This document shows positions 47-26,489 of a stretch of DNA of 26,489 nucleotides, one piece after another. Numbering within the stretch: position 1 is the stretch's first letter; the number at the start of each line of letters is the position of its first letter. The notes beneath the pieces were generated by a model. The model saw only the letters and a list, made by a program, of their open reading frames with translations, was not told where the DNA came from and did not search any database. This DNA is from a virus, in IMG/VR virus record IMGVR_UViG_3300025890_002629, positions 1-26,489 of that record; one strand, given 5' to 3'. The position numbers and the translations under genes were made by a program.

Positions 47-2323
47 ATGAAGTCGTTTTCAGGTTTTATTAAAAGCACTCTATTAGAATTTACAGAAGGG
101 CCAACTATTTTTTCTGGATATAAAGTAGAACCACACACGGAATACTATATGCCTGGTGGTAGTGAAAAATCAAAAGAAATAGTACCTCTAATATCATTAG
201 AACATGTTGCGGCCGAAGATGATAAGGAATCTGGAGTAAAAAAAGGAGAAACTTCGCATGATTTTTTTGCCTTAGAAACACTTCATGGTAGACTCAAACC
301 CCCACCAAAGAAAAATACACTTACAGATGCACATGCAATCATGGAAGATTATGATAAGGATTTAAAAGCATTGTCGTTTAATCCAAGTACAAACTATCAT
401 GGCAACAACACTTTTATAAATGAAATTATTTCCAAACTAAAGAACATTGGAATTCATGGAACTAATGAAGGTGGTAAGGTAGATAAAAAAGCCATGAAAT
501 ACGTTTTAGACCACATCAATCATATTATCTTAAATGAGAATGGATTAAAAGGTCATTTAGAAGCATTTAATAAATTGAGTGAAAGAACATTCAATGTAGT
601 AAGAAGTGACAAGACATATCGTTCTCTGCCTGCTAGACTAGAATCAGAATTATCACATGTTTTTGATAAAGGTATTCCAATGGATTTAATTTATGATGCA
701 GAAAACAACGTGATAAGAACAGGAGGAAAGGATGCTTTAATAGTAATGTTTAAAAAGGCAAAAGACATTATATCTGAAACATTTAATACTGCAGAAGCAA
801 AACCTTTATTGCATAGAGGATTTTTATATGATGAAGGTGGAGTTGCAGATCCAGATGAACTCAAGAAATACCTTAAAGGTGAAAAAAGTATTGAGCCAGG
901 TCTATTAAAAGCATTTAAAGAACGTTCTTCTAAACCATTGTCAAAAGAAGATAATCAAAAGATATTTGTAAATTTTGTTAAAACATTTGCAAAGAAACTA
1001 AAAAATACTTTCAAAATTCAATATGATTTTGAAAACATGGCTACAATGACAAATTTACCTGCTTCTAAAATTGAATTAATTTTTGGTGAGAAAAAATCAT
1101 CTGAAGAAGTAAAAGAAATTAACCATCAATTTCAAAACGCAAAGAAAGAAGCATTGCATGATGTTTTCCATAATGAATCTCAAGGATTAAAATTGTACAT
1201 GGACTTGAATAATGGTAAATTTGAAAAAGTAAACATTACTAACTTCTCAAAAGTTGTTAGTTCTATGCATCGTTATTTTGCTAAATCATCAGGGGCTGAC
1301 ACTGGTGTTGCGGGTTTATTTAAGGTAAGTGCTGTCAATACAGCTTTGGGTAAAAATGTAAAGGTATCCAATACTCAAAAGAAAGAAGATGCACTTGATG
1401 CTAACAAAAAGCTAAGTTCAACAGAGGGTACTGTAATGGATTTTACATTACCGGCATATCGTGGTTTAGTTTTAATGAAAAGACCTTGGAAAGATATCTA
1501 TGGTAAACAACATCCTGCAAATTCATTAGCAGTAGTCAATACATGTCCTGCTGCGGGTGCATGTAAGAATTTCTGTTATGCTACAAAAGGTGGATACATT
1601 ATGTTTGGTAGTCCACAATTGCAAGCTGCAAAAATGTTAACTAAATTGGTTAATGAGCCAGAAAAATTTAAGCAAGAAATGATTAAGGCAATCAAAACAG
1701 CCAGTGCAAATAAAAAGTTAACTCTTCGTTGGCATGATGCTGGCGATTTCTTCACAACAGGTTATTTTGAACTTGTTATGGATATTGCTAAACAAACACC
1801 AGATGTATTGCACTATGCATATACAAAACGTGCCGACTTGTTGAAAAAGTCCATCTCTGGTGAGATTTCAAAAATTCCAGACAACTTTGTGTTTGATATT
1901 TCAAAAGGTTCAATCTATGATAAATCTTTGTCAAAAGAACTTATTAAAGATGGATTGAAATTCTCTGATGTTACTCCTACTAAATTTAAGAAGAGTGAGT
2001 TAACACCAGAAATAATAAGTCAATTAAATGGTAAGAAGGATATAGACGTTAGAAAAGAAGAAGTTGTGTTTAAATTTCCATCCAAAGATGAACTTAAAAC
2101 TTTAGATGGTAAGAAAGATGATGTCTATAGAGATTTACATGAAGGATATATCATGGCATTAAAACATGTATATGGTTTTAATATTCCAATTAAAACATAT
2201 ACAGAGATGACCAAGATTAAAGAAGGTTCAGAAGGTAAGTTCCATGTATTAGTTTATGGAGATGATGGTGATGCTGGAGCATTCCGTAAGGATGTTGTTG
2301 GTTCACTACTTGTAATACACTGA
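47..2323 (+). CDS. Large phage protein with C-terminal GP88-like domain and capsid-targeting-like N-terminus
   Basis: This 758-residue protein starts at an ATG preceded by an AAGGAA ribosome-binding site. The C-terminal part (about residues 470-758) resembles the phage GP88 domain named after mycobacteriophage L5 gp88. It has a cysteine cluster, C500-x5-C506-x3-C510-Y-A, followed by R561-W-H-D-A-G-D-F. The molecular function of that family is not known to me. The first residues (MKSFSGFIKSTLLEF) resemble the MKTYQEFIAEA capsid-targeting peptide of T4 internal proteins, and LLE fits the (L/I)xE cleavage consensus of the T4 prohead protease gp21. The middle (residues 90-460) is lysine-rich and not recognised. 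The next gene follows after 1 nt, so they are likely co-transcribed. I infer a virion-associated or internal protein. The GP88 call is fairly secure and the packaging role is speculative. Confidence 0.72.
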   Translation: MKSFSGFIKSTLLEFTEGPTIFSGYKVEPHTEYYMPGGSEKSKEIVPLISLEHVAAEDDKESGVKKGETSHDFFALETLHGRLKPPPKKNTLTDAHAIMEDYDKDLKALSFNPSTNYHGNNTFINEIISKLKNIGIHGTNEGGKVDKKAMKYVLDHINHIILNENGLKGHLEAFNKLSERTFNVVRSDKTYRSLPARLESELSHVFDKGIPMDLIYDAENNVIRTGGKDALIVMFKKAKDIISETFNTAEAKPLLHRGFLYDEGGVADPDELKKYLKGEKSIEPGLLKAFKERSSKPLSKEDNQKIFVNFVKTFAKKLKNTFKIQYDFENMATMTNLPASKIELIFGEKKSSEEVKEINHQFQNAKKEALHDVFHNESQGLKLYMDLNNGKFEKVNITNFSKVVSSMHRYFAKSSGADTGVAGLFKVSAVNTALGKNVKVSNTQKKEDALDANKKLSSTEGTVMDFTLPAYRGLVLMKRPWKDIYGKQHPANSLAVVNTCPAAGACKNFCYATKGGYIMFGSPQLQAAKMLTKLVNEPEKFKQEMIKAIKTASANKKLTLRWHDAGDFFTTGYFELVMDIAKQTPDVLHYAYTKRADLLKKSISGEISKIPDNFVFDISKGSIYDKSLSKELIKDGLKFSDVTPTKFKKSELTPEIISQLNGKKDIDVRKEEVVFKFPSKDELKTLDGKKDDVYRDLHEGYIMALKHVYGFNIPIKTYTEMTKIKEGSEGKFHVLVYGDDGDAGAFRKDVVGSLLVIH

Positions 2324-2324
2324 T

Positions 2325-2591
2325 ATGAAACTTGGTTCTCTAGTACCAAATTATATTAAAATAGGAATCACTGCTGGTTTTACTGTAGCAACTGTCATAT
2401 CTGTAAGTTTAGTTGAAACATTTTTTGATATAGATATCAGTAGACCAGCAATGATTCATGAGATACATAATGTAGAGGATGAGTTAAATAATTTGCGTAG
2501 AGAGAACATAAACCTTAGAACAGTTGTTATTTTAATGAGTGCTGAAAATCGTAATGAACATGTTATACAATTACTTTTAAATAATGAATAA
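2325..2591 (+). CDS. Small membrane-anchored coiled-coil protein
   Basis: This 88-residue protein starts one base after the stop of the GP88-domain gene, which suggests translational coupling. Residues about 11-30 form one hydrophobic membrane segment (IKIGITAGFTVATVISVSLV). A charged stretch around residues 47-63 (EIHNVEDELNNLRRENINLR) has heptad-like leucines and asparagines and probably forms a coiled coil. There is no lipobox and no enzyme motif. I do not recognise the family. It lies between two large proteins with capsid-targeting-like N-termini, so a role in the virion or at the host membrane is possible but not shown. Confidence 0.6.
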   Translation: MKLGSLVPNYIKIGITAGFTVATVISVSLVETFFDIDISRPAMIHEIHNVEDELNNLRRENINLRTVVILMSAENRNEHVIQLLLNNE

Positions 2592-2609
2592 TTTTACAAG
2601 CAGCAATCA

Positions 2610-4310
2610 ATGATGAAATTTAGAGAATATCTTGAAGAAGAAAAGAAACTTCCAACTAATCTCAAGCCTTCTTTGTTTTTAGGTGAAAAAGAAGTATGGG
2701 AAAATTTGGATCAATATAAAAATGATCTTCACCAAGGAATAGATAATTTAAAAAATGAATTGATTACAAAAGACCACAAACAAGTTCTTCATAATCTTGT
2801 AAGCAATCCAGATGGCAACTGTTTAAGAAATACAAGTTTTAAAAAAGCCAGTGATATGAGTACTGCTTTTGTAAACAAAGTGAGCAAAGATTTTGGTGAA
2901 GCAATTGGTCCAATAAAGATTCTTGAAGACCCTGATTTCATGCCTTGGATTAACGCATACAAAAAGATACACATTCCAAAGAAATCTAATGAGCCGTTTT
3001 TAGATTATACAATTACAGACAAAGATAATATTGAACATAAGATTTCTGCAAAGTCCGCAAAAGCTTCCGGAAATACAGTTAAAACTCCGAATATAATTTC
3101 TGCAATTGAAACTGCATTAAAAAAGAAAAAAAGTTCTTATATTATACAAAAATTATTTACAAACAAAGATAGTAAGTATAATAAAGAATATGAATTGCTG
3201 GTCAAAATTTTTGACTACATTGAGCAAGAGAAAGCACCGCAAGGTTATCTTAAAGTTGCCGCATTACTTGACAATCATTATGGTGATAAAAAATATTATA
3301 ATAAAATAGAAAAATTAAAAGATGAATTTTATAATAAGTTACCAACTGGAAGGAAGGCAGACTATACGGCAATAAAAACGCCAGATGGCGGAAATGCGGA
3401 TTTATTAATGAAAGAAGCTGATAAAATCATAAAAAGATACTCATCTCCTCCCTACCCAATTAATGTTGCATTAAAGATTTTAATTAATATTGTATTCAAA
3501 GATGAAGTTTATTTCGCAAAATTTGGAATCAATACAAATGGCACAACAGTATGGGAAGTTAGAGGTAGAAGAACAAATTATTCTAATCTATATTTGAGAA
3601 ATAAAACTGGAACTACACTATACACAAAGTTACATTTAGATTCTAAAGGAGCAAGAGGAGATGAAAAGATTGGATTGAGAATAGAAGAGACGGAGTTTGG
3701 TGAAGAAAACTTATTAAATGAAAGTAAAAATAAAACATCAATTGAACTGCTTGATTGGCCTAGAGCAGATGAATTTACAGGATTAAAAATGAAACACTAT
3801 GAAAAAATTAAAATAGCAAGAGAACATGCTAAAGTCTTAGGTACTGGTTCAACAAGAGTTGCTTTTGAAATTGATTTTAAAAATAAACCAACCGTAATGA
3901 AGATTGCAAAGAACGAAAAAGGATTACGACAGAATTTAGCCGAAGCTAACTTATATAATAAGTATAAAGGTACTCCACCATTCGCACCACCATTGATTGA
4001 TTGGGATGATAATGATGATGCAGATGTTTCATGGATTCATATCATGAAAGCCGCAAAATATGAAGAGAGTGCTTTCTTTAGACATTTTGATACTTCATTT
4101 ACAGTATTCAGTAGAGTACTTTCCAAGTATATCAACAAACAAGAAACAAATGAAATAAATAATAAGATTAAGAAATTCATAGAGTTTGTAGAAGATAATG
4201 ATTTAATGCTTGGAGAATATAGACAGAAAAGTAATTGGGGTATATGGAATTCAAAGCCAGTCATTCTTGATGCAGGTGTTACTAAAACAAATCAAGAATT
4301 GACTTTATAA
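2610..4310 (+). CDS. Protein with C-terminal kinase-like fold and capsid-targeting-like N-terminus
   Basis: The protein has 566 residues. Two adjacent ATGs give MMKFREYLEEE, and the second gives a better match to the T4 capsid-targeting peptide, with LEE as a possible gp21-type cleavage site. The C-terminal 160 residues look like a divergent protein-kinase or phosphotransferase fold. They contain a glycine-rich loop (VLGTGSTRVAF, from residue 409), a lysine strand (VMKIAK, K431), and a following helix with a conserved-type Glu (NLAEANLY). An Asn (N542 in NWGIW) and an Asp (D554 in VILDAG) sit where the catalytic Asn and the DFG Asp would be. No HRD motif is obvious, so activity is uncertain. 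Residues 120-160 (KISAKSAKASGNTVKT) are unrecognised. I infer a virion-delivered enzyme analogous in placement to T4 Alt, but of a different fold. Confidence 0.65.
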   Translation: MMKFREYLEEEKKLPTNLKPSLFLGEKEVWENLDQYKNDLHQGIDNLKNELITKDHKQVLHNLVSNPDGNCLRNTSFKKASDMSTAFVNKVSKDFGEAIGPIKILEDPDFMPWINAYKKIHIPKKSNEPFLDYTITDKDNIEHKISAKSAKASGNTVKTPNIISAIETALKKKKSSYIIQKLFTNKDSKYNKEYELLVKIFDYIEQEKAPQGYLKVAALLDNHYGDKKYYNKIEKLKDEFYNKLPTGRKADYTAIKTPDGGNADLLMKEADKIIKRYSSPPYPINVALKILINIVFKDEVYFAKFGINTNGTTVWEVRGRRTNYSNLYLRNKTGTTLYTKLHLDSKGARGDEKIGLRIEETEFGEENLLNESKNKTSIELLDWPRADEFTGLKMKHYEKIKIAREHAKVLGTGSTRVAFEIDFKNKPTVMKIAKNEKGLRQNLAEANLYNKYKGTPPFAPPLIDWDDNDDADVSWIHIMKAAKYEESAFFRHFDTSFTVFSRVLSKYINKQETNEINNKIKKFIEFVEDNDLMLGEYRQKSNWGIWNSKPVILDAGVTKTNQELTL

Positions 4311-5086: not shown

Positions 5087-5560
5087 ATGGAATATGTAAA
5101 TTTGACTATAGAAACAATGATGGATTTGATTAGGGAATTAATGGAGGAGCAAAGACTTGACCCACAGGATTTTATGGAGATATCTCTAAATTATGCGACT
5201 GATGAAGAAATAATGGCTTATACTCAACATTGGCATTACGAAGGTGATTTTGAGGATTTTGAGATTGATAACGGTTCCACAAGAAGAAAAGCTATAATAG
5301 ATTCCTTATATGATGGTAAATATGATTATGATGGTTTAACATCTATTCCAATAATTTTCCAAGTTTGGGAAAAAGAAAAAATTTTTGAGTTTTGTGAAAA
5401 AGAAAATATTTCTTACATTTTTACAAAAGAATTTCTATGTGACCCTGATAATAATTTCAAGTGTATTCCGATGAAAGTAAAAGTCGAATTGGGTTGTGCG
5501 GCAGATTATTTTATGAGAAAGTACGGAAGTAAAACAAACGAAAGTGAGAATGCTACATGA
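5087..5560 (+). CDS. Acidic hypothetical protein
   Basis: This 157-residue, strongly acidic protein starts 2 nt after the VOC gene stop. Its N-terminal 30 residues form probable helices (MDLIRELMEEQRLDPQDFMEISL). Residues 45-60 are very acidic (HYEGDFEDFEIDNG). The C-terminus has three cysteines but no recognisable zinc motif. I do not recognise the family. Its stop codon overlaps the start of the next small gene (ATGA), so the two are translationally coupled. No enzyme motif is visible. Confidence 0.6.
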   Translation: MEYVNLTIETMMDLIRELMEEQRLDPQDFMEISLNYATDEEIMAYTQHWHYEGDFEDFEIDNGSTRRKAIIDSLYDGKYDYDGLTSIPIIFQVWEKEKIFEFCEKENISYIFTKEFLCDPDNNFKCIPMKVKVELGCAADYFMRKYGSKTNESENAT

Positions 5561-5724
5561 AAAGAAAAAAAGGACGTAAAGCATCTAAGCGTACAGTAAA
5601 ATGTACAATTTGTACGACACATCGTTGGAAAGGTAATATGGAATGTGCTGATGGTCGTTGGAATATTAGCACATTAAAAAGAAAACAATCTGCAAATGAG
5701 CAGATAAAAGAATTTACTTGTTGA
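5557..5724 (+). CDS. Small basic CxxC protein
   Basis: This 55-residue protein starts at the ATG of an ATGA overlap with the preceding gene. It begins with a very basic tail (MKRKKGRKASKR), followed by C16-T-I-C19-T-T-H-R-W and later C30. The CxxC plus His/Cys arrangement could bind zinc or RNA, as in short basic phage and ribosome-associated proteins. Its TGA stop is directly next to the acceptor piece of the tmRNA. Codon use matches its neighbours. Real expression is supported by the coupled start and the motif, but the function is unknown. Confidence 0.6.
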   Translation: MKRKKGRKASKRTVKCTICTTHRWKGNMECADGRWNISTLKRKQSANEQIKEFTC

Positions 5725-5884
5725 CCTGAGAAGATAATCGCTACGGACCCGAGTTGCGATACTCGGCGGCTCCACCAAGATAACATTTTACGAAGTGTTA
5801 TGTTAGGGGCCGAACAGATTAGACGTTGGGTGAAAATATCAGAGAGAGTAAAGAGGGTGATGACCGTCATCAAACTTCATAGTC

Positions 5885-5932
5885 GCAAACAATAATGACT
5901 ATACCTCTGCACAAGTAGCAATGGCTGCCTGA
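5885..5932 (+). other. tmRNA proteolysis-tag reading frame
   Basis: The resume codon is GCA at 5885, and the frame reads ANNNDYTSAQVAMAA then TGA (5930-5932). It is 15 residues, starts with AN as most tags do, and ends in hydrophobic-Ala-Ala (MAA), the type of C-terminus recognised by ClpXP. It directly follows the conserved ATAGTC upstream of the resume codon. Confidence 0.88.
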
Positions 5933-5947
5933 TGTAGACGAGGATTA

Positions 5948-5984
5948 GGGTTGTTCCTTGTCACCAAAACAACCCAGCTTTTTT
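5948..5984 (+). terminator. Rho-independent terminator of the tmRNA
   Basis: GGGTTGTT (5948-5955) pairs with AACAACCC (5968-5975) around a 12-nt loop and is followed by AGC and six T residues (5979-5984). It ends the tmRNA transcript just upstream of the phosphate transporter gene. Confidence 0.85.
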
Positions 5985-6015
5985 ATTAACCCGTGTATAA
6001 TTATGAAAGGAGTCA

Positions 6016-6981
6016 ATGGATGCAACATTACTCTACACAATCGTAGGTTTTATACTCGCAAGTTATTCAGTTATTGCTAACGATTCAGTTCAAACGCTAG
6101 GCACATGGATAGCAAGTAATTCAGATAAATTTAAATGGTATGTGCTTTGGATAGCATCTAGTACTGTATTGGTACTTACTTTATGGTATGGATGGTATAC
6201 AAACAATGGTGACATATCATATGGTAGATTAGATAAGATTCCATATCAAACTATTGAATGGTATCATGCGGTAGCCCCACTCATTCTTGTAGTTCTTACA
6301 AGATATGGAATTCCAGTTTCAACAACATTCCTTGTATTATCAGCATTCGCAAGTACTGTAGTTCTGGAAAAAGTTCTACTTAAATCCGCTATGGGATATA
6401 TTGTTGCTGCAGCAAGTGCATATCTCATATGGATTGTTGTTTCTAGATTTTGGGAAACAAAGAAAGATATACCAGAGAGTCATGATAAATGGTGGCGCAT
6501 TGCTCAATGGTGTACAACTGGTTGGTTATGGTTCACTTGGTTGAGTCATGACATGGCAAACATTGCAGTATTCTTGCCGAGGCAACTATCACTAGAAATG
6601 TTGATGGTAATTAGTTTAATTTTTATAATTGGTCTTGGATTTATGTTTCATGAAAAAGGTGGGAAGATTCAAGAGATTGTACTAAGCAAAACTAATACTA
6701 ATTATGTTCGTTCTGCTACACTTGTTGATTTGATTTATAGTATCATATTATGGTACTTTAAAGAATACAATAATATTCCGATGTCAACTACATGGGTATT
6801 TGTTGGATTGTTAGCAGGTAGAGAACTAGCATTTGCAACTACAAAAGGTAAGTACAAATTTAAAACTGTCTTTCCTTTAGTTGGTAGAGATTTCTTTAAG
6901 ATGATGATTGGATTGGCTCTGTCAATTGCAATTGTTTTAGCAATTCACGGATTTGCTTTTGATGGTTTAGCTAATCTTTAA
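6016..6981 (+). CDS. PiT-family (PHO4) inorganic phosphate transporter-like membrane protein
   Basis: The protein has 321 residues with about nine or ten hydrophobic segments, and starts after a strong AAAGGAG site. It shows the duplicated PiT signature. The first half has ANDSVQTLGTW (N22, D23), matching the GANDVANA-type motif, and later GIPVSTTF. The second half has SHDMANIAVFLP and IPMSTTWVFVGLLAGRE. PiT proteins take up phosphate with a cation at the inner membrane. At 321 residues it is shorter than cellular PitA (about 500) and seems to lack the long central loop. During infection it would raise phosphate supply for nucleotide synthesis, and phosphate limits growth in the ocean. The stop overlaps the stop of the convergent tail-gene cluster. 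Specificity for phosphate is inferred from the family. Confidence 0.78.
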   Translation: MDATLLYTIVGFILASYSVIANDSVQTLGTWIASNSDKFKWYVLWIASSTVLVLTLWYGWYTNNGDISYGRLDKIPYQTIEWYHAVAPLILVVLTRYGIPVSTTFLVLSAFASTVVLEKVLLKSAMGYIVAAASAYLIWIVVSRFWETKKDIPESHDKWWRIAQWCTTGWLWFTWLSHDMANIAVFLPRQLSLEMLMVISLIFIIGLGFMFHEKGGKIQEIVLSKTNTNYVRSATLVDLIYSIILWYFKEYNNIPMSTTWVFVGLLAGRELAFATTKGKYKFKTVFPLVGRDFFKMMIGLALSIAIVLAIHGFAFDGLANL

Positions 6982-7778
6982 AACTCACCACCGTATATTA
7001 TAGCCGGTCTCACTTGAGAACTGGCTATATTTTTGAATGTTCCTTCTCTTTGCATTAAAATTTCATCAGTTTCTAAAGGTAATGTTATATTTACATCTTC
7101 CATTGATGAAACTGTTTGATGATCATTTTTAAATGTTATAAACTTACGTTTAAATTCATCTTCCTCTATTTCAAAAGAAATACCATCTCCTTTTATATAC
7201 AAAGTATCTGAATATTCAGCATTAAGTGTACGATTTGCATTATCTGATATTTCATTTACAACAGATACTGCACTGAATGCATTGTGATTTACATTTAATT
7301 TGGTATTATCACGATTTACACTAAATCCAGAATTCGCTTCAAAGTTTAATTGGTCAAATCCAGTAGAATTAAAAGAACCAGATTTTATATTGAATCCTGT
7401 AAATCCATAAGAACTTAAATCAGGAGGAACAACATCTTCTGTTACATCTTTGTATATATTTGAAACTAAATTTAAAGTTTTAGTTTTTTCATCTTCATTT
7501 ATACCAGTAGAATAAACACTTGCAAATTTTATTTTAGTTAATTCATCATTATCCACTCTGCTGTTTGTGGGTATATCATATAACACAAAATTTGCATCAA
7601 TATTATGATTTGTATTTGACAAATTAAACGCATTGATTTGATCTATCGCACCAGTTTCTAATTGAGCATTATCAATATTTTGTGTAACGTTTTTTGTTAT
7701 AGTAAGTTCAGATGTAGTTATATCTATATTTGAACTATAACTTAATGTATTTCTTATTTTTTGAAGTGAATTTGACAT
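6978..7778 (-). CDS. Putative tail/fibre-associated structural protein
   Basis: This 266-residue protein is the last gene of the minus-strand block. It is rich in Asn, Ser, Thr and Asp, low in Cys and without membrane segments. It shows repeated short strand-like stretches (SYGFTGFNIKSGSFNSTGFD, then NFEANSGFSVNRDNTKLNVN), a composition typical of beta-rich fibre or baseplate proteins. I do not recognise a specific family. Its position behind other fibre-like genes and a T4-late-like promoter supports a virion role. Its stop codon overlaps the stop of the convergent transporter gene, leaving no room for a terminator between them. Confidence 0.6.
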   Translation of the reverse strand: MSNSLQKIRNTLSYSSNIDITTSELTITKNVTQNIDNAQLETGAIDQINAFNLSNTNHNIDANFVLYDIPTNSRVDNDELTKIKFASVYSTGINEDEKTKTLNLVSNIYKDVTEDVVPPDLSSYGFTGFNIKSGSFNSTGFDQLNFEANSGFSVNRDNTKLNVNHNAFSAVSVVNEISDNANRTLNAEYSDTLYIKGDGISFEIEEDEFKRKFITFKNDHQTVSSMEDVNITLPLETDEILMQREGTFKNIASSQVRPAIIYGGEF

Positions 7779-7783
7779 ATTTT

Positions 7784-8119
7784 TTAGAATGTAAATGTTG
7801 GCATTACATTCACTTGTCCTTGTAATAACATAGACCTTACACCAGTAGTGTGAAGTAACACTACATCATAATTATAATAACCAGGAGGTATAGTTTTAGT
7901 AATTGTAGAATCCATAAACAAAACAAAATCAGTTGTATTTTTTAAAACTTCAAATTGCCAATATTTTTTTGATTCATAATTTTTTCTCATTTGAGCAAAC
8001 AATGCATAACCAATAAGTGAATCAGGTGCTGATTCTATTTCAGTACATTGTATACCTTTTATAAAATCAGTACCTGTATATAAATCTAATATTGATAAGT
8101 TAGTTTGCTGAAAAGCCAC
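7784..8119 (-). CDS. Ig-like/BppU-type baseplate or fibre protein (putative)
   Basis: This 111-residue protein follows the pattern of small phage beta-sandwich proteins found near fibres and baseplates. A residue-rich first strand pair (LDLYTGTDFIKGIQC) is followed by GYALFAQMRKNYESKKYWQFEV. It closes with IPPGYYNYDVVLLHTTGVRS and LQGQVNVMP, matching the common form G-x-Y-x-Y-D-V-x-L...G-V-x(4)-L-x-G-x-V-x-V-x-P. The resemblance to BppU-N-terminal-type domains is by pattern only. It lies 5 nt upstream of the next structural gene, in the minus-strand late block. Confidence 0.6.
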   Translation of the reverse strand: MAFQQTNLSILDLYTGTDFIKGIQCTEIESAPDSLIGYALFAQMRKNYESKKYWQFEVLKNTTDFVLFMDSTITKTIPPGYYNYDVVLLHTTGVRSMLLQGQVNVMPTFTF

Positions 8120-8132
8120 TGATTATACCTTT

Positions 8133-8315
8133 TTAAAATTGAGGTGATTCTTCTTCTTGTAGTTTTGCTTCTTTTTTCAATTCATTAATCATAGCTATTG
8201 CACCAAAATTCATAAGTTTTTGTTGAGACAATTGCTCAATTCTTTTATCAATCTCTTCTTGCATTTTTTTTATTTCTTCAAATTTGTCATCAAGCCATTC
8301 AGTTGTTATTTGCAT
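8133..8315 (-). CDS. Short coiled-coil protein
   Basis: This is a 60-residue protein when started at the ATG whose first base is 8315, preceded on the minus strand by TAGGAT. A longer frame would start at 8387 inside the upstream gene and add an unlikely hydrophobic stretch, so I reject that start. Residues 5-35 (EWLDDKFEEIKKMQEEIDKR) are highly charged with regular hydrophobic spacing, predicting a coiled coil, and the C-terminus is acidic. It may be a small accessory component of the fibre assembly or an oligomerisation factor. The function is not established. Confidence 0.6.
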   Translation of the reverse strand: MQITTEWLDDKFEEIKKMQEEIDKRIEQLSQQKLMNFGAIAMINELKKEAKLQEEESPQF

Positions 8316-8325
8316 GAATAAAATC

Positions 8326-8796
8326 CTATTCAAAAAGTTTAATTTTAAATTGTGATATATCAAATCTATCAATAATATTAATATCATTAATATTTGTTCT
8401 ACCCGTTTTTACTATAACATAATCAATTTCTTTTTCTGATATTATTCCAAAGTTAGGCGGTTCTCCAAAATTTTCAAATGATTGTATATTTATTTCTGTA
8501 TTATAGGTGTTACTGCTAAAATTATTTGTAAAGGTGAATTTAAATTCTCCTGTATTAATTTTTTGATAACTATCAATATTTGTACTATTTATTGTGTTAT
8601 TTGCTTGTGGGAAATACGTTGCTTCAGCAAAATTTTGATGAACTACCGCATTTGAATTAAAACTATCTATTTGATTGTTTGCATTTTTAAAGAAAAGTTT
8701 ACCATCACTAATATTGATAGCTAGTTCACCGGTTTCCAAAGAACTTGGGACTCTACCGACTACATTAGAATTCTTAATCTTGACAATATTTGCCAT
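8326..8796 (-). CDS. Tail fibre-like protein with GELAIN-type repeat N-terminus
   Basis: The 156-residue protein begins ANIVKIKNSNVVGRVPSSLE and continues TGELAINISDGKLFFKNAN. This is the N-terminal signature often seen in phage tail-fibre proteins (P-x-x-L-x-x-G-E-L-A-x-N-x-x-D-G-K-L-F-x-K). The remainder is Asn-, Thr- and Ser-rich and probably beta-structured, with no chaperone domain at its own C-terminus. The upstream gene encodes a stand-alone S74-like domain, ending 2 nt before this start. Together the two may represent a fibre built from separate polypeptides. The fibre call is supported by motif and context, and the receptor is unknown. Confidence 0.68.
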   Translation of the reverse strand: MANIVKIKNSNVVGRVPSSLETGELAINISDGKLFFKNANNQIDSFNSNAVVHQNFAEATYFPQANNTINSTNIDSYQKINTGEFKFTFTNNFSSNTYNTEINIQSFENFGEPPNFGIISEKEIDYVIVKTGRTNINDINIIDRFDISQFKIKLFE

Positions 8797-8798
8797 TC

Positions 8799-9158
8799 TT
8801 ATTTTTTAAATATATTTAAAAAAGATAATTCTGAATCAGAAGTATTTTTTATTGTTTTTGATTCCAATTCTTTTATTTTATTATGTGCTAGTTTTAAATT
8901 AAAATTTAATTCTTTAATAGCAGAAATTAATAAAGGAATTATTTTAATGTAATTTACACTTACAATATCACCACGTTCATTCAATTTAACTAACTCAGGA
9001 TAAAATTCAATTACATCTTCAGCTAATAAACCTGGTATATTTTTTTCTATTTTATCGTAATTATTTGTTGTATCGTATACAATTGGATTAAATTTATCTG
9101 TTAATTTTAATCCATTCTTTAAAGATTTAACATTTTGTATTTTCTCAAAACTATTCAT
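8799..9158 (-). CDS. Stand-alone S74-like intramolecular-chaperone domain protein
   Basis: The 119 residues are almost only the pattern of the Peptidase S74 / endosialidase-type chaperone domain. PGLLAEDVIEFYPELVKLNE is followed by VSVNYIKIIPLLISAIKELN and a C-terminal coiled coil (LAHNKIKELESK). In the family this domain sits at the C-terminus of fibres, helps trimerise them and cuts itself off at a Ser within an SDxRLK-N motif. Here the equivalent start is MNSFEKIQNVKSLKNGLKL, so the canonical Ser-Asp is not clearly present and there is no upstream fibre part. It could be a trans-acting or degenerate chaperone. It lies directly upstream of a fibre-like gene. Confidence 0.68.
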   Translation of the reverse strand: MNSFEKIQNVKSLKNGLKLTDKFNPIVYDTTNNYDKIEKNIPGLLAEDVIEFYPELVKLNERGDIVSVNYIKIIPLLISAIKELNFNLKLAHNKIKELESKTIKNTSDSELSFLNIFKK

Positions 9159-9193
9159 AAATTTTATTTTTTTTAAAAAAAGACTTGACTTTT

Positions 9194-9589
9194 TTAATTG
9201 ACTACTGTATTATATAAAACTACAACACTAGACCCATTTACTATCGCATCGTGAAATTGAACAACGGAATAATTAGAATAAGCTACAATCTGATAGTCTC
9301 TAATAACTATGTTTCCTGTGACCTCACTATTTGCTGATGGTGCTTTTAATAGTCCATTTACAAAAACTAATGCACTATAAATATCAGTAGCATGAGCTAA
9401 TTGAAATAAAGTTTCGTTGTCGGGATCTGGATCGCCAGATATAAAACTTTCAATATGATTAAATATTTTTGGTCTAGCTAAATCTAAATCTCTTTTTGAT
9501 ATAGCATCTGTAGGTTCAACCGCAGTGCCAACATTTTTAATACGAAAATTACTAAGATTTAAATCACGATCCATTAAAGTTTCTGACAT
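9194..9589 (-). CDS. Tail fibre / virion attachment-type protein
   Basis: This 131-residue protein is the first gene of the minus-strand structural block. Its N-terminus (DRDLNLSNFRIKNVGTAVEP, then TDAISKRDLD) matches the repeated fibre motif I-x-N-V-x-x-P-x-x-x-x-D-A-x-x-K-x-x-(V/L)-D of many phage tail fibres. The second half is a compact beta-rich region (IYSALVFVNGLLKAP, IVIRDYQIVAYSNYSVVQFH). No enzymatic residues are visible. A T4-late-like box lies 46 nt upstream on the same strand. I infer a small fibre or adaptor component and cannot say which. Confidence 0.68.
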   Translation of the reverse strand: MSETLMDRDLNLSNFRIKNVGTAVEPTDAISKRDLDLARPKIFNHIESFISGDPDPDNETLFQLAHATDIYSALVFVNGLLKAPSANSEVTGNIVIRDYQIVAYSNYSVVQFHDAIVNGSSVVVLYNTVVN

Positions 9590-9634
9590 TATATCGACTC
9601 TTTAAATAGTTATTGAATACAGATTCCCTTAGAA

Positions 9635-9642
9635 TATTTATG
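9635..9642 (-). promoter_or_regulatory. T4-late-like promoter box for the structural cluster
   Basis: On the minus strand this reads CATAAATA, one mismatch from the T4 late promoter TATAAATA. It lies 46 bp upstream of the first minus-strand structural gene in the short divergent region, and no sigma70-like -35 accompanies it. It is consistent with the gp33-like coactivator encoded at 22784. Confidence 0.5.
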
Positions 9643-9669
9643 TTTTAAATTATTTATCAAAAAAGTATT

Positions 9670-10335
9670 ATGATTTTAGCAAAACCTGAATTTATTTTTT
9701 CTGATTTGAATACGAAAACGATTGATACAAAAAGGTATTATGTCACACCTGAAGGTAACAAGTTCATCTCAATTACTACCTTACTTGGACATTTTAAAAA
9801 GAAATCAATTGCACAGTGGAGAAAAAGGGTCGGAGAAAAAGAAGCAAACAGAATTACCGCAGAGTCAAGTTCAAACGGCACTAGAATGCATTCCGGTCTT
9901 GAGTTATACTTGGACGGGAAAGATCATAAACAATACGTTGAAACCAAAGAAGAAGAGGTTCAATTTGATTGTATAAAAAATCATTTAGATAATCATCTAC
10001 AAGAAACATGGTATCAGGAAATACCATTATATTCCAATCAACTTGGAGTTGCAGGCCGTGTTGATTTAATCGGACTATATAATAACATGCCTACAATTAT
10101 TGATTTTAAAACTTCACGTAAGTTGAAAAAGAAACAATGGATTGAAGATTACTTTATGCAAGCTACTTTTTATAGCATGGCATTTTTTGAATTAACTAAT
10201 TACCCAATCAAAGATATTGCAATTTTAATTTCCGTAAACAAAGGGGAAGATTTTCAAGTTTTCCATGAAAAAGTCGGAAACTGGATGAAACCTCTTCATT
10301 CAAAAATTAAAGAATATAAGGGTATTTTCTTATGA
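9670..10335 (+). CDS. PD-(D/E)XK (RecB/MGME1-like) exonuclease
   Basis: The 221-residue protein carries the catalytic core of a PD-(D/E)XK nuclease. D132 lies in GVAGRVDLIG, and D145-F-K147 in TIIDFKTSRK. The downstream helix motif Q164-x3-Y168 (QATFYSMAF) is typical of RecB/Cas4-like exonucleases. An N-terminal helix has GTRMHSGLELYL, where the His matches the position used by the RecB/MGME1 group. Such enzymes in T4-like phages trim or degrade DNA ends during replication and recombination. There is no four-cysteine iron-sulfur cluster, so it is not a canonical Cas4. It is the first gene of the plus-strand block that diverges from the structural genes, and its stop overlaps the next start (ATGA). 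Confidence 0.8.
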   Translation: MILAKPEFIFSDLNTKTIDTKRYYVTPEGNKFISITTLLGHFKKKSIAQWRKRVGEKEANRITAESSSNGTRMHSGLELYLDGKDHKQYVETKEEEVQFDCIKNHLDNHLQETWYQEIPLYSNQLGVAGRVDLIGLYNNMPTIIDFKTSRKLKKKQWIEDYFMQATFYSMAFFELTNYPIKDIAILISVNKGEDFQVFHEKVGNWMKPLHSKIKEYKGIFL

Positions 10336-10523
10336 GTAAAAATCAATTAATATATAAGCAAGCTAAGAATTTACAAAAGGCTATGCCCAAAGATAGCAAA
10401 GTTTACATTCATTGGGATGCACATGATAATCCAGTAGTATTACCTACTAAACAACGTGGTTATGGAGTTATAAATGTCGTAAACCTATCTTCTATTTTAA
10501 ATAAACAATGTTGGTTAGGATAA
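10332..10523 (+). CDS. Small hypothetical protein
   Basis: This 63-residue protein starts at the ATGA overlap with the nuclease gene, so its translation is probably coupled. It is basic at the N-terminus (MSKNQLIYKQAKNLQKAMPK) and beta-like after residue 23 (KVYIHWDAHDNPVV). I do not recognise a family and see no catalytic or metal-binding motif. A role linked to the upstream nuclease is possible by position only. Confidence 0.55.
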   Translation: MSKNQLIYKQAKNLQKAMPKDSKVYIHWDAHDNPVVLPTKQRGYGVINVVNLSSILNKQCWLG

Positions 10524-10527
10524 AAAA

Positions 10528-10872
10528 ATGATACCGAATCATGCAGAATATATGAAACATTCGGGTAATGTAGTACAATATGTAGTAGAGGAAATTGATG
10601 GCACTAGATGCATAGTAAAATTTAAAGTTGAAGATTTTTCTATACTAGAATTTATAATTCATAATCAACCAAAATTAACACAATGTGAGGTATCATCTGA
10701 TTATGATACAGAAGATGACTGGCTTTCCTTTGAGGTAGATAATGGAGGAACTGAGATTTGTCTTTTCTTGATGGAAAATATATTTATGGAACATATATTA
10801 TGGGAAGAAATTGATGATTACTCTGAAGATAATATTATTAGAATACTCATACCAAATTTAAAAAATTATTAA
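10528..10872 (+). CDS. Acidic hypothetical protein
   Basis: This 114-residue acidic protein starts 4 nt after the preceding gene. It has alternating beta-like segments (VVQYVVEEIDGTRCIVKFKV, LSFEVDNGGTEICLFLMENI) and acidic turns. I recognise no domain. It ends 8 nt before a strong promoter (10881), so it is the last gene of the nuclease operon. Small acidic phage proteins sometimes inhibit host DNA-binding enzymes, but nothing here shows that. Confidence 0.55.
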   Translation: MIPNHAEYMKHSGNVVQYVVEEIDGTRCIVKFKVEDFSILEFIIHNQPKLTQCEVSSDYDTEDDWLSFEVDNGGTEICLFLMENIFMEHILWEEIDDYSEDNIIRILIPNLKNY

Positions 10873-26118: not shown

Positions 26119-26489
26119 ATGTTTCGTTTTTTCTATGATAAACGCTGGAGATGGTGGAGTACGTTAGGTACATTCACTATCCTTGCTGCTATCTGGTATA
26201 GTGTACAATTAGATGTGCAAATTAATGAGTGGTTTGGTAGGTTTTATGATGCTCTTCAAAAAGCATTATCACAACCAGGTTCTGTTAGTTATGAAGAGTA
26301 TTATGGATACATGTATGACTTCTTTAGCATAGCAGGTATCTATATTATTGTGAATGTCATCTTCAACGGATTTTTAGTTAATCACTGGACATTCCGTTGG
26401 CGGCAAAGTATGGCAGATTATTATCATGAAAATTGGCAAAAAGTGAGACACATTGAGGGTGCTAGTCAACGTGTTCAAGAAGATACATT
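26119..26489 (+). CDS. SbmA/BacA-like peptide transporter (5' part, runs off the window)
   Basis: The visible 123 residues match the SbmA/BacA family. A start like YDKRWRWWSTLGTFTILAAI is followed by QINEWFGRFYDALQKALSQP, NHWTFRWRQSMADYYHENWQ and KVRHIEGASQRVQEDT. In E. coli SbmA the corresponding stretches include YWSILGTALIIF, FYDLIQTALSSP, VFRWRTAMNEYYMANWQ and LRHIEGAAQRVQEDT. SbmA/BacA is an inner-membrane importer of peptides. Alphaproteobacterial BacA is important in host interactions and lipid A very-long-chain fatty acid traits. The first membrane segment of SbmA is missing here, since the protein starts about 85 residues later. AAAGGA precedes the ATG. The 3' end lies beyond the window. 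Confidence 0.85.
   Translation, partial: MFRFFYDKRWRWWSTLGTFTILAAIWYSVQLDVQINEWFGRFYDALQKALSQPGSVSYEEYYGYMYDFFSIAGIYIIVNVIFNGFLVNHWTFRWRQSMADYYHENWQKVRHIEGASQRVQEDT

Follow-up and report, generated by a model that had tools for sequence, protein, structure and literature searches.

The window analysed here (the whole viral record IMGVR_UViG_3300025890_002629, 26,489 nt) comes from a T4-like phage and carries, on its + strand, a real gene for a two-piece, circularly permuted tmRNA that appears to be intact. In a scan of the whole window against 4227 Rfam families, the model tmRNA_permuted (RF04321) matches positions 5714–5932 end to end with 87.7 bits (E = 7.7e-16; cut-off 47), a score below those of the sampled alphaproteobacterial genes with listed scores (98–167 bits). 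The alphaproteobacterial model (RF01849, alpha_tmRNA), with which the first-pass annotation had proposed to check its own reading of the locus, matches 5670–5979 at 55.4 bits (E = 5.1e-13), only 5 bits over its own cut-off of 50, while the models for beta (46.4 bits; cut-off 84) and cyano tmRNA (30.1 bits; cut-off 70) both score under their cut-offs; the closest Rfam group is alphaproteobacterial. ARAGORN calls three tRNAs in the window and no tmRNA. The model score is accompanied by the gene order and acceptor pairing of a permuted tmRNA, a G3-U70 pair, an encoded CCA, a resume codon, a tag frame with a small hydrophobic end and a stop, and a pseudoknot, the latter counted on the 3′ pseudoknot (5939–5975) only.

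The acceptor piece comes first. It begins at about 5714, where the RF04321 match starts, with the 5′ strand of helix P2 (5714–5745), followed by an 18-nt T-arm, CCGAGU-UGCGAU-ACUCGG (5749–5766), and by the 3′ acceptor strand CGGCUCC (5767–5773), the discriminator A73 (5774) and the encoded CCA (5775–5777). The T-arm can be drawn as 6 bp with a 6-nt loop or as 5 bp with an 8-nt loop and is one nt longer than usual. The coding piece opens with the 5′ acceptor strand GGGGCCG (5806–5812), before which a cut by RNase P is expected; all seven pairs of the acceptor stem (5767–5773 with 5806–5812) form. The third-position G-U acceptor pair marks alanine tRNA and tmRNA, and here this alanine identity pair, G3-U70, is the wobble pair G5808-U5771. 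Then follow a D-loop of 9 nt (5813–5821), which has 10 nt in almost every alphaproteobacterium sampled, and the 3′ strand of P2 (5824–5851), placed by the RF04321 model and by its pairing with the acceptor piece; 16 of the 17 proposed P2 pairs form, the single mismatch being U5742 × U5827. Between CCA and the coding piece lies a spacer of 28 nt (5778–5805), expected to be lost on maturation, with a 9-bp hairpin (5780–5801) that stacks on the acceptor stem in the predicted precursor. The first-pass annotation, which put the acceptor half with CCA to 5777 and the coding half from 5806, was right about coordinates and anatomy; its overall span, 5725–5985, takes in the elements but starts too late, as the 5′ strand of P2 reaches to about 5714.

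The tag frame runs from 5885 to 5932 (GCA to the stop codon TGA at 5930–5932) and its direct translation is ANNNDYTSAQVAMAA. The resume codon is embedded in a hairpin, AUAGUC/GACUAU (5879–5902), that folds alone with z = −1.8 and puts UAGUC directly before GCA; the complete resume motif UAGUC-GCA-AAC is intact. UAGUC also precedes the resume codon in E. coli.

The inverted repeat behind the tag, which had been taken for a terminator, is better read as the conserved 3′ pseudoknot of the tmRNA. It is part of an H-type pseudoknot (5939–5975) of two interlocking helices, S1 (CGAGG/CCUUG, 5939–5943/5956–5960) and S2 (GGGUUGU/ACAACCC, 5948–5954/5969–5975). A terminator scan scored no terminator-like site on the + strand at the repeat, and the T-run at 5979–5984, earlier seen as the terminator tail, is absent from the close relative described below, in which the interlocking helices are kept; we have therefore rejected the terminator. 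A similar motif, CCTTGTTAnCAAAACGCCCC, occurs in four viral contigs (L057–L060) that are near-copies of one another.

The surroundings are those of a phage. The window encodes a single-stranded DNA-binding gp32 of T4 type (phrog_224, 7.5e-85), a Mom-like modification protein and a phrog_1250 protein weakly similar to a DnaC-like helicase loader. The best phage matches of gp32 are cyanophage proteins with about 40–47% identity (the nearest about 44%); the type of the tmRNA suggests, without proving it, a link to alphaproteobacteria. A small + strand ORF of 55 amino acids (5557–5724; CxxC...HRW) has a stop codon that overlaps the 5′ end of the tmRNA, is kept in the relative, and has no Pfam, PHROG or phage-record match. 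Directly after the tmRNA, a gene for a membrane protein (6016–6981) shows a weak match to the phosphate transporter family PF01384 (24.5 bits, below the cut-off of 33.7). Genes for nucleotide synthesis are found between 14899 and 25258 (PRPP synthetase, adenylosuccinate lyase, SAICAR synthetase and a LacAB/RpiB-type isomerase), and the start of an SbmA/BacA-like peptide transporter (PF05992, 2e-44) at 26119–26487 belongs to a gene that runs off the window end.

An exact pattern for the T-arm found one other viral contig, L025, part of a record of 146,510 bases. Synteny with this 146.5-kb viral contig, together with gp32 and the Mom-like gene, places the tmRNA on a phage genome, as had been claimed. 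That the window is a bacterial contig misfiled as viral, a thought that its mere 26 kb and its metabolic genes may raise, is scarcely credible against these same three observations. The genes flanking the tmRNA in L025 share 71–76% DNA identity with the window, and the section that comprises the small upstream ORF and the tmRNA 81%; a DNA match to the start of the 6016–6981 gene lies about 1 kb past the tmRNA in L025. Within the tmRNA gene, identity is 98% in the acceptor piece (the T-arm having the same letters), 93% in the spacer, 87% in the coding piece before the tag, 73% in the tag and 88% in the 3′ pseudoknot region.

Base pairing is preserved throughout this divergence: 58 of 59 proposed pairs form in the window and all 59 in L025. 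Five pairs are changed and all of them are paired in L025, one by a double change in the spacer hairpin (A5783-U5798 to G-C). P2 differs between the two in three pairs, each of which pairs in L025, giving 17 pairs out of 17. All 12 pairs of the 3′ pseudoknot form in both, one being altered from A-U to G-U, and the six pairs of the resume hairpin are unchanged. The acceptor stem and spacer hairpin fold at −21.0 kcal/mol (z = −4.0) in the window and −23.4 kcal/mol (z = −4.7) in L025. Over the whole gene, six of 33 substitutions fall in paired positions, which make up 118 of 264 positions (P = 0.001), and with the tag excluded six of 20 (P = 0.04), figures that come from one sequence pair and from helices selected in part by looking at both sequences, and are thus supportive rather than independent proof.

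The tag frame is likewise retained. The tag of L025, ANNNDYAPVLAAIAA, ends with TAA instead of TGA and keeps the frame, the ANNNDY start and the Ala-Ala end despite substitution of 13 of 48 nt, with drift in the middle residues and synonymous changes in the last alanines; the first-pass annotation's intact frame is borne out. In trials with 13 random substitutions, frame and Ala-Ala survived in a fraction of 0.09 and, with the ANNNDY start in addition, of 0.00016, the latter figure to be read knowing that the resume hairpin also constrains the 5′ end of the tag.

These comparisons bear on the idea that the gene is a passenger or a decaying copy derived from a host, either an attachment-site remnant or a pseudogene. 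Host ssrA genes can serve as prophage integration sites (PMC9004378) and the window scores below bacterial genes, as such a copy might; we consider it very unlikely nevertheless, since the gene is whole and no fragment, occupies an equivalent site in both of the diverged phages, and has changed mostly outside its stems, with or without the tag.

Among 109 distinct genes of viruses and bacteria whose acceptor stems are fully paired (7/7), pair 5-68 is found as C-G, G-C, U-A or A-U, and pair 6-67 as C-G or U-A, a tally that leans to pairing because the stem finder took the best-pairing candidate and required GGGG and CTCC, leaving only pairs 5–7 informative. Within these bounds, the acceptor strands covary across relatives, as expected for the pairing first proposed. 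Covariation within the subfamily of the window is thin, L025 being the one close relative found. A presumed third relative, L081, proved to be a chance match within a coding gene, and a protein-based search with the upstream gene yielded no further loci.

The elbow is the part of tmRNA bound by SmpB, and its proportions in the window depart from the bacterial ones. D-loop and T-arm measure 10 and 17 nt in 54 of 57 distinct bacterial elbows and in eight of 20 viral ones, a contrast that is a lead, the bacterial sample being alphaproteobacterial only and drawn partly from best-scoring matches. The window shares its combination of a 9-nt D-loop and an 18-nt T-arm with L025 and with the viral tmRNAs L069 and L072; the combination was not found among the 57 distinct alphaproteobacterial elbow pairs sampled; an 18-nt T-arm occurs in one of these, there with a 10-nt D-loop. 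The exact T-arm pattern has no match in 84,980 bacterial and archaeal genomes. A bacterial source of the long T-arm was also sought with a second pattern, GGGGCCGAANAGATTNGACG, and was set aside; of its three matches, L084 and L085 are not tmRNA-like, and the third is L086. Elbows of viral permuted tmRNAs vary, with 9/18, 9/17, 10/16 and 11/16 all represented (the window, L069, L071 and L072 among them).

A pattern search of viral sequences followed by RF04321 put 22 of 50 tested contigs over the cut-off. Of 20 viral loci above the RF04321 cut-off (L056–L077 and L089), 11 go without a tmRNA call by ARAGORN, among them all three 9/18 loci of the set, so that counts of phage two-piece tmRNAs based on ARAGORN are probably lower bounds. 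One could go further and see in the re-proportioned 9/18 elbow the mark of a viral class of its own among permuted tmRNAs, missed by ARAGORN, which would engage host SmpB in an altered way and compete with the host tmRNA, or escape its control, during infection; we advance this tentatively and think it rather doubtful.

The divergent elbow could also suit a dominant-negative decoy, an RNA that would bind host SmpB or ribosomes and blunt or divert host tagging, in the manner of the TLD-only RNA of mycobacteriophage DS6A, which lacks a tag and is recorded as a tmRNA inhibitor (PMC11915505, PMC4131195). Such an RNA would need no tag frame, resume motif or 3′ pseudoknot, and all of these are retained in two diverged phages. 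The maintained tag in particular makes a decoy less likely, and we regard it as decidedly improbable beside an RNA that works in tagging.

Tag sequences offer a further comparison. Among 111 alphaproteobacterial tags extracted by script from sampled genomes, 96 start with ANDN. The ANNN start of the window and L025 is unusual, yet it is present in one bacterium (L179). Phages differ amongst themselves: the phage Melnitz and the viral loci L063 and L064 have ANDN, and the Pelagibacter phage HTVC008M has ANFN. The departures in the window, L025 and HTVC008M could be taken for re-coding, by which the phage RNA would displace host tmRNA and its tag would be handled differently by host adaptors (SspB), sparing or redirecting degradation. 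The bacterial ANNN, the phages that retain ANDN and the Ala-Ala degron end kept in the window all speak against this, and we hold it to be improbable. Nor does the comparison give evidence that the tag is adapted to proteases of the phage or the host, as had been suggested at first.

We return to a functional rescue RNA. tmRNA releases ribosomes that have stalled and marks their incomplete products with a tag, and the window has the parts that a working one needs: alanine identity, CCA, P2, resume signal, a tag with a degradable end and the 3′ pseudoknot. The gene is likely a functional circularly permuted ssrA of a T4-like phage, by which stalled ribosomes would be rescued during infection. 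Extrapolating from its anatomy, its conserved pairing and tag frame and its phage context, we would expect transcription of a single precursor that RNase P cuts before G5806; tRNA 3′ processing would expose CCA at 5777, and the 28-nt spacer would be discarded, the acceptor and coding pieces being held together via the acceptor stem and helix P2. Charging would be with alanine (G3-U70, A73).

SmpB (PF01668) was detected neither in the window, which is a fragment, nor in its 146.5-kb relative, the same search being positive in 10 of 14 control genomes; a self-contained rescue system, with tmRNA and SmpB on the same genome, was accordingly found in neither, and host SmpB is presumably used. It would bring the RNA to ribosomes halted on mRNAs that are broken or lack a stop codon, translation would resume at the GCA of the phage tag and add (A)ANNNDYTSAQVAMAA, and the ribosome would be released. 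The likely benefits are that translation capacity could be sustained while host mRNA is destroyed, and that truncated proteins could be cleared by host proteases reading the Ala-Ala end. Support of ribosome recycling in infection appears the most economical role.

Two-piece tmRNAs of phages were themselves published in 2022, when that of Melnitz was described along with 53 two-piece structures found by ARAGORN among 18,146 phage genomes, 50 of the 53 coming from marine or aquatic samples (PMC9004378); a list of 2025 holds 79 unique phage tmRNAs of all forms (PMC11915505). The gene in the window is a new, divergent instance of a type already described, which adds a clean, conserved case to the little-studied ribosome-rescue RNAs of phages and, if functional, offers a compact system in which to study why phages bring along a rescue RNA and tag of their own. 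With the Caulobacter-type alphaproteobacterial tmRNA (RF01849), it shares gene order, G3-U70, CCA, resume hairpin, 3′ pseudoknot and Ala-Ala end, but not the elbow or the ANDN start of the tag.

Melnitz (a Methylophilales phage, MZ577097; RF04321 score 113.4 bits) is also a T4-like myophage with a permuted ssrA of alphaproteobacterial type and its own tag, ANDNYVPVDYALAA, but has a 142-nt spacer, a 10-nt D-loop and a 17-nt T-arm. It carries a reported glutamine riboswitch (PMC9004378); none was found at threshold by the Rfam scan of the window. HTVC008M (KC465899), isolated on SAR11, has a permuted tmRNA at 145161–145370 (90.6 bits with RF04321; loci L089 and L091), which is absent from the annotated features of the record and differs from that of the window by its 10/17 elbow, a 49-nt spacer and a shorter tag, ANFNEYALAA. 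A peroxiredoxin gene lies about 1 kb downstream of it, and L025 encodes a 54% identical homologue shortly after its own tmRNA, a hint that the two loci share an ancestor.

Huge phages also carry ribosome-rescue genes, tmRNA and, in some genomes, SmpB (PMC7162821), unlike the window and L025, where no SmpB was found. One further viral contig (IMGVR_UViG_3300014508_000071, 54,545 bases; L127 and L217) encodes a terminase-like protein, a permuted tmRNA and a full-length SmpB (1.5e-50), with an RNase R-like protein (RNB, 3e-104) adjoining SmpB, two ClpP-like proteases, a sigma factor, DnaJ and a glutaminyl/glutamyl-tRNA synthetase (features at 8070–8516, 8732–10630 and 16114–16343 of L127, and at 1776–3353, 6656–7219 and 8491–9348 of L217), a gene set with the appearance of a rescue-and-degrade kit.
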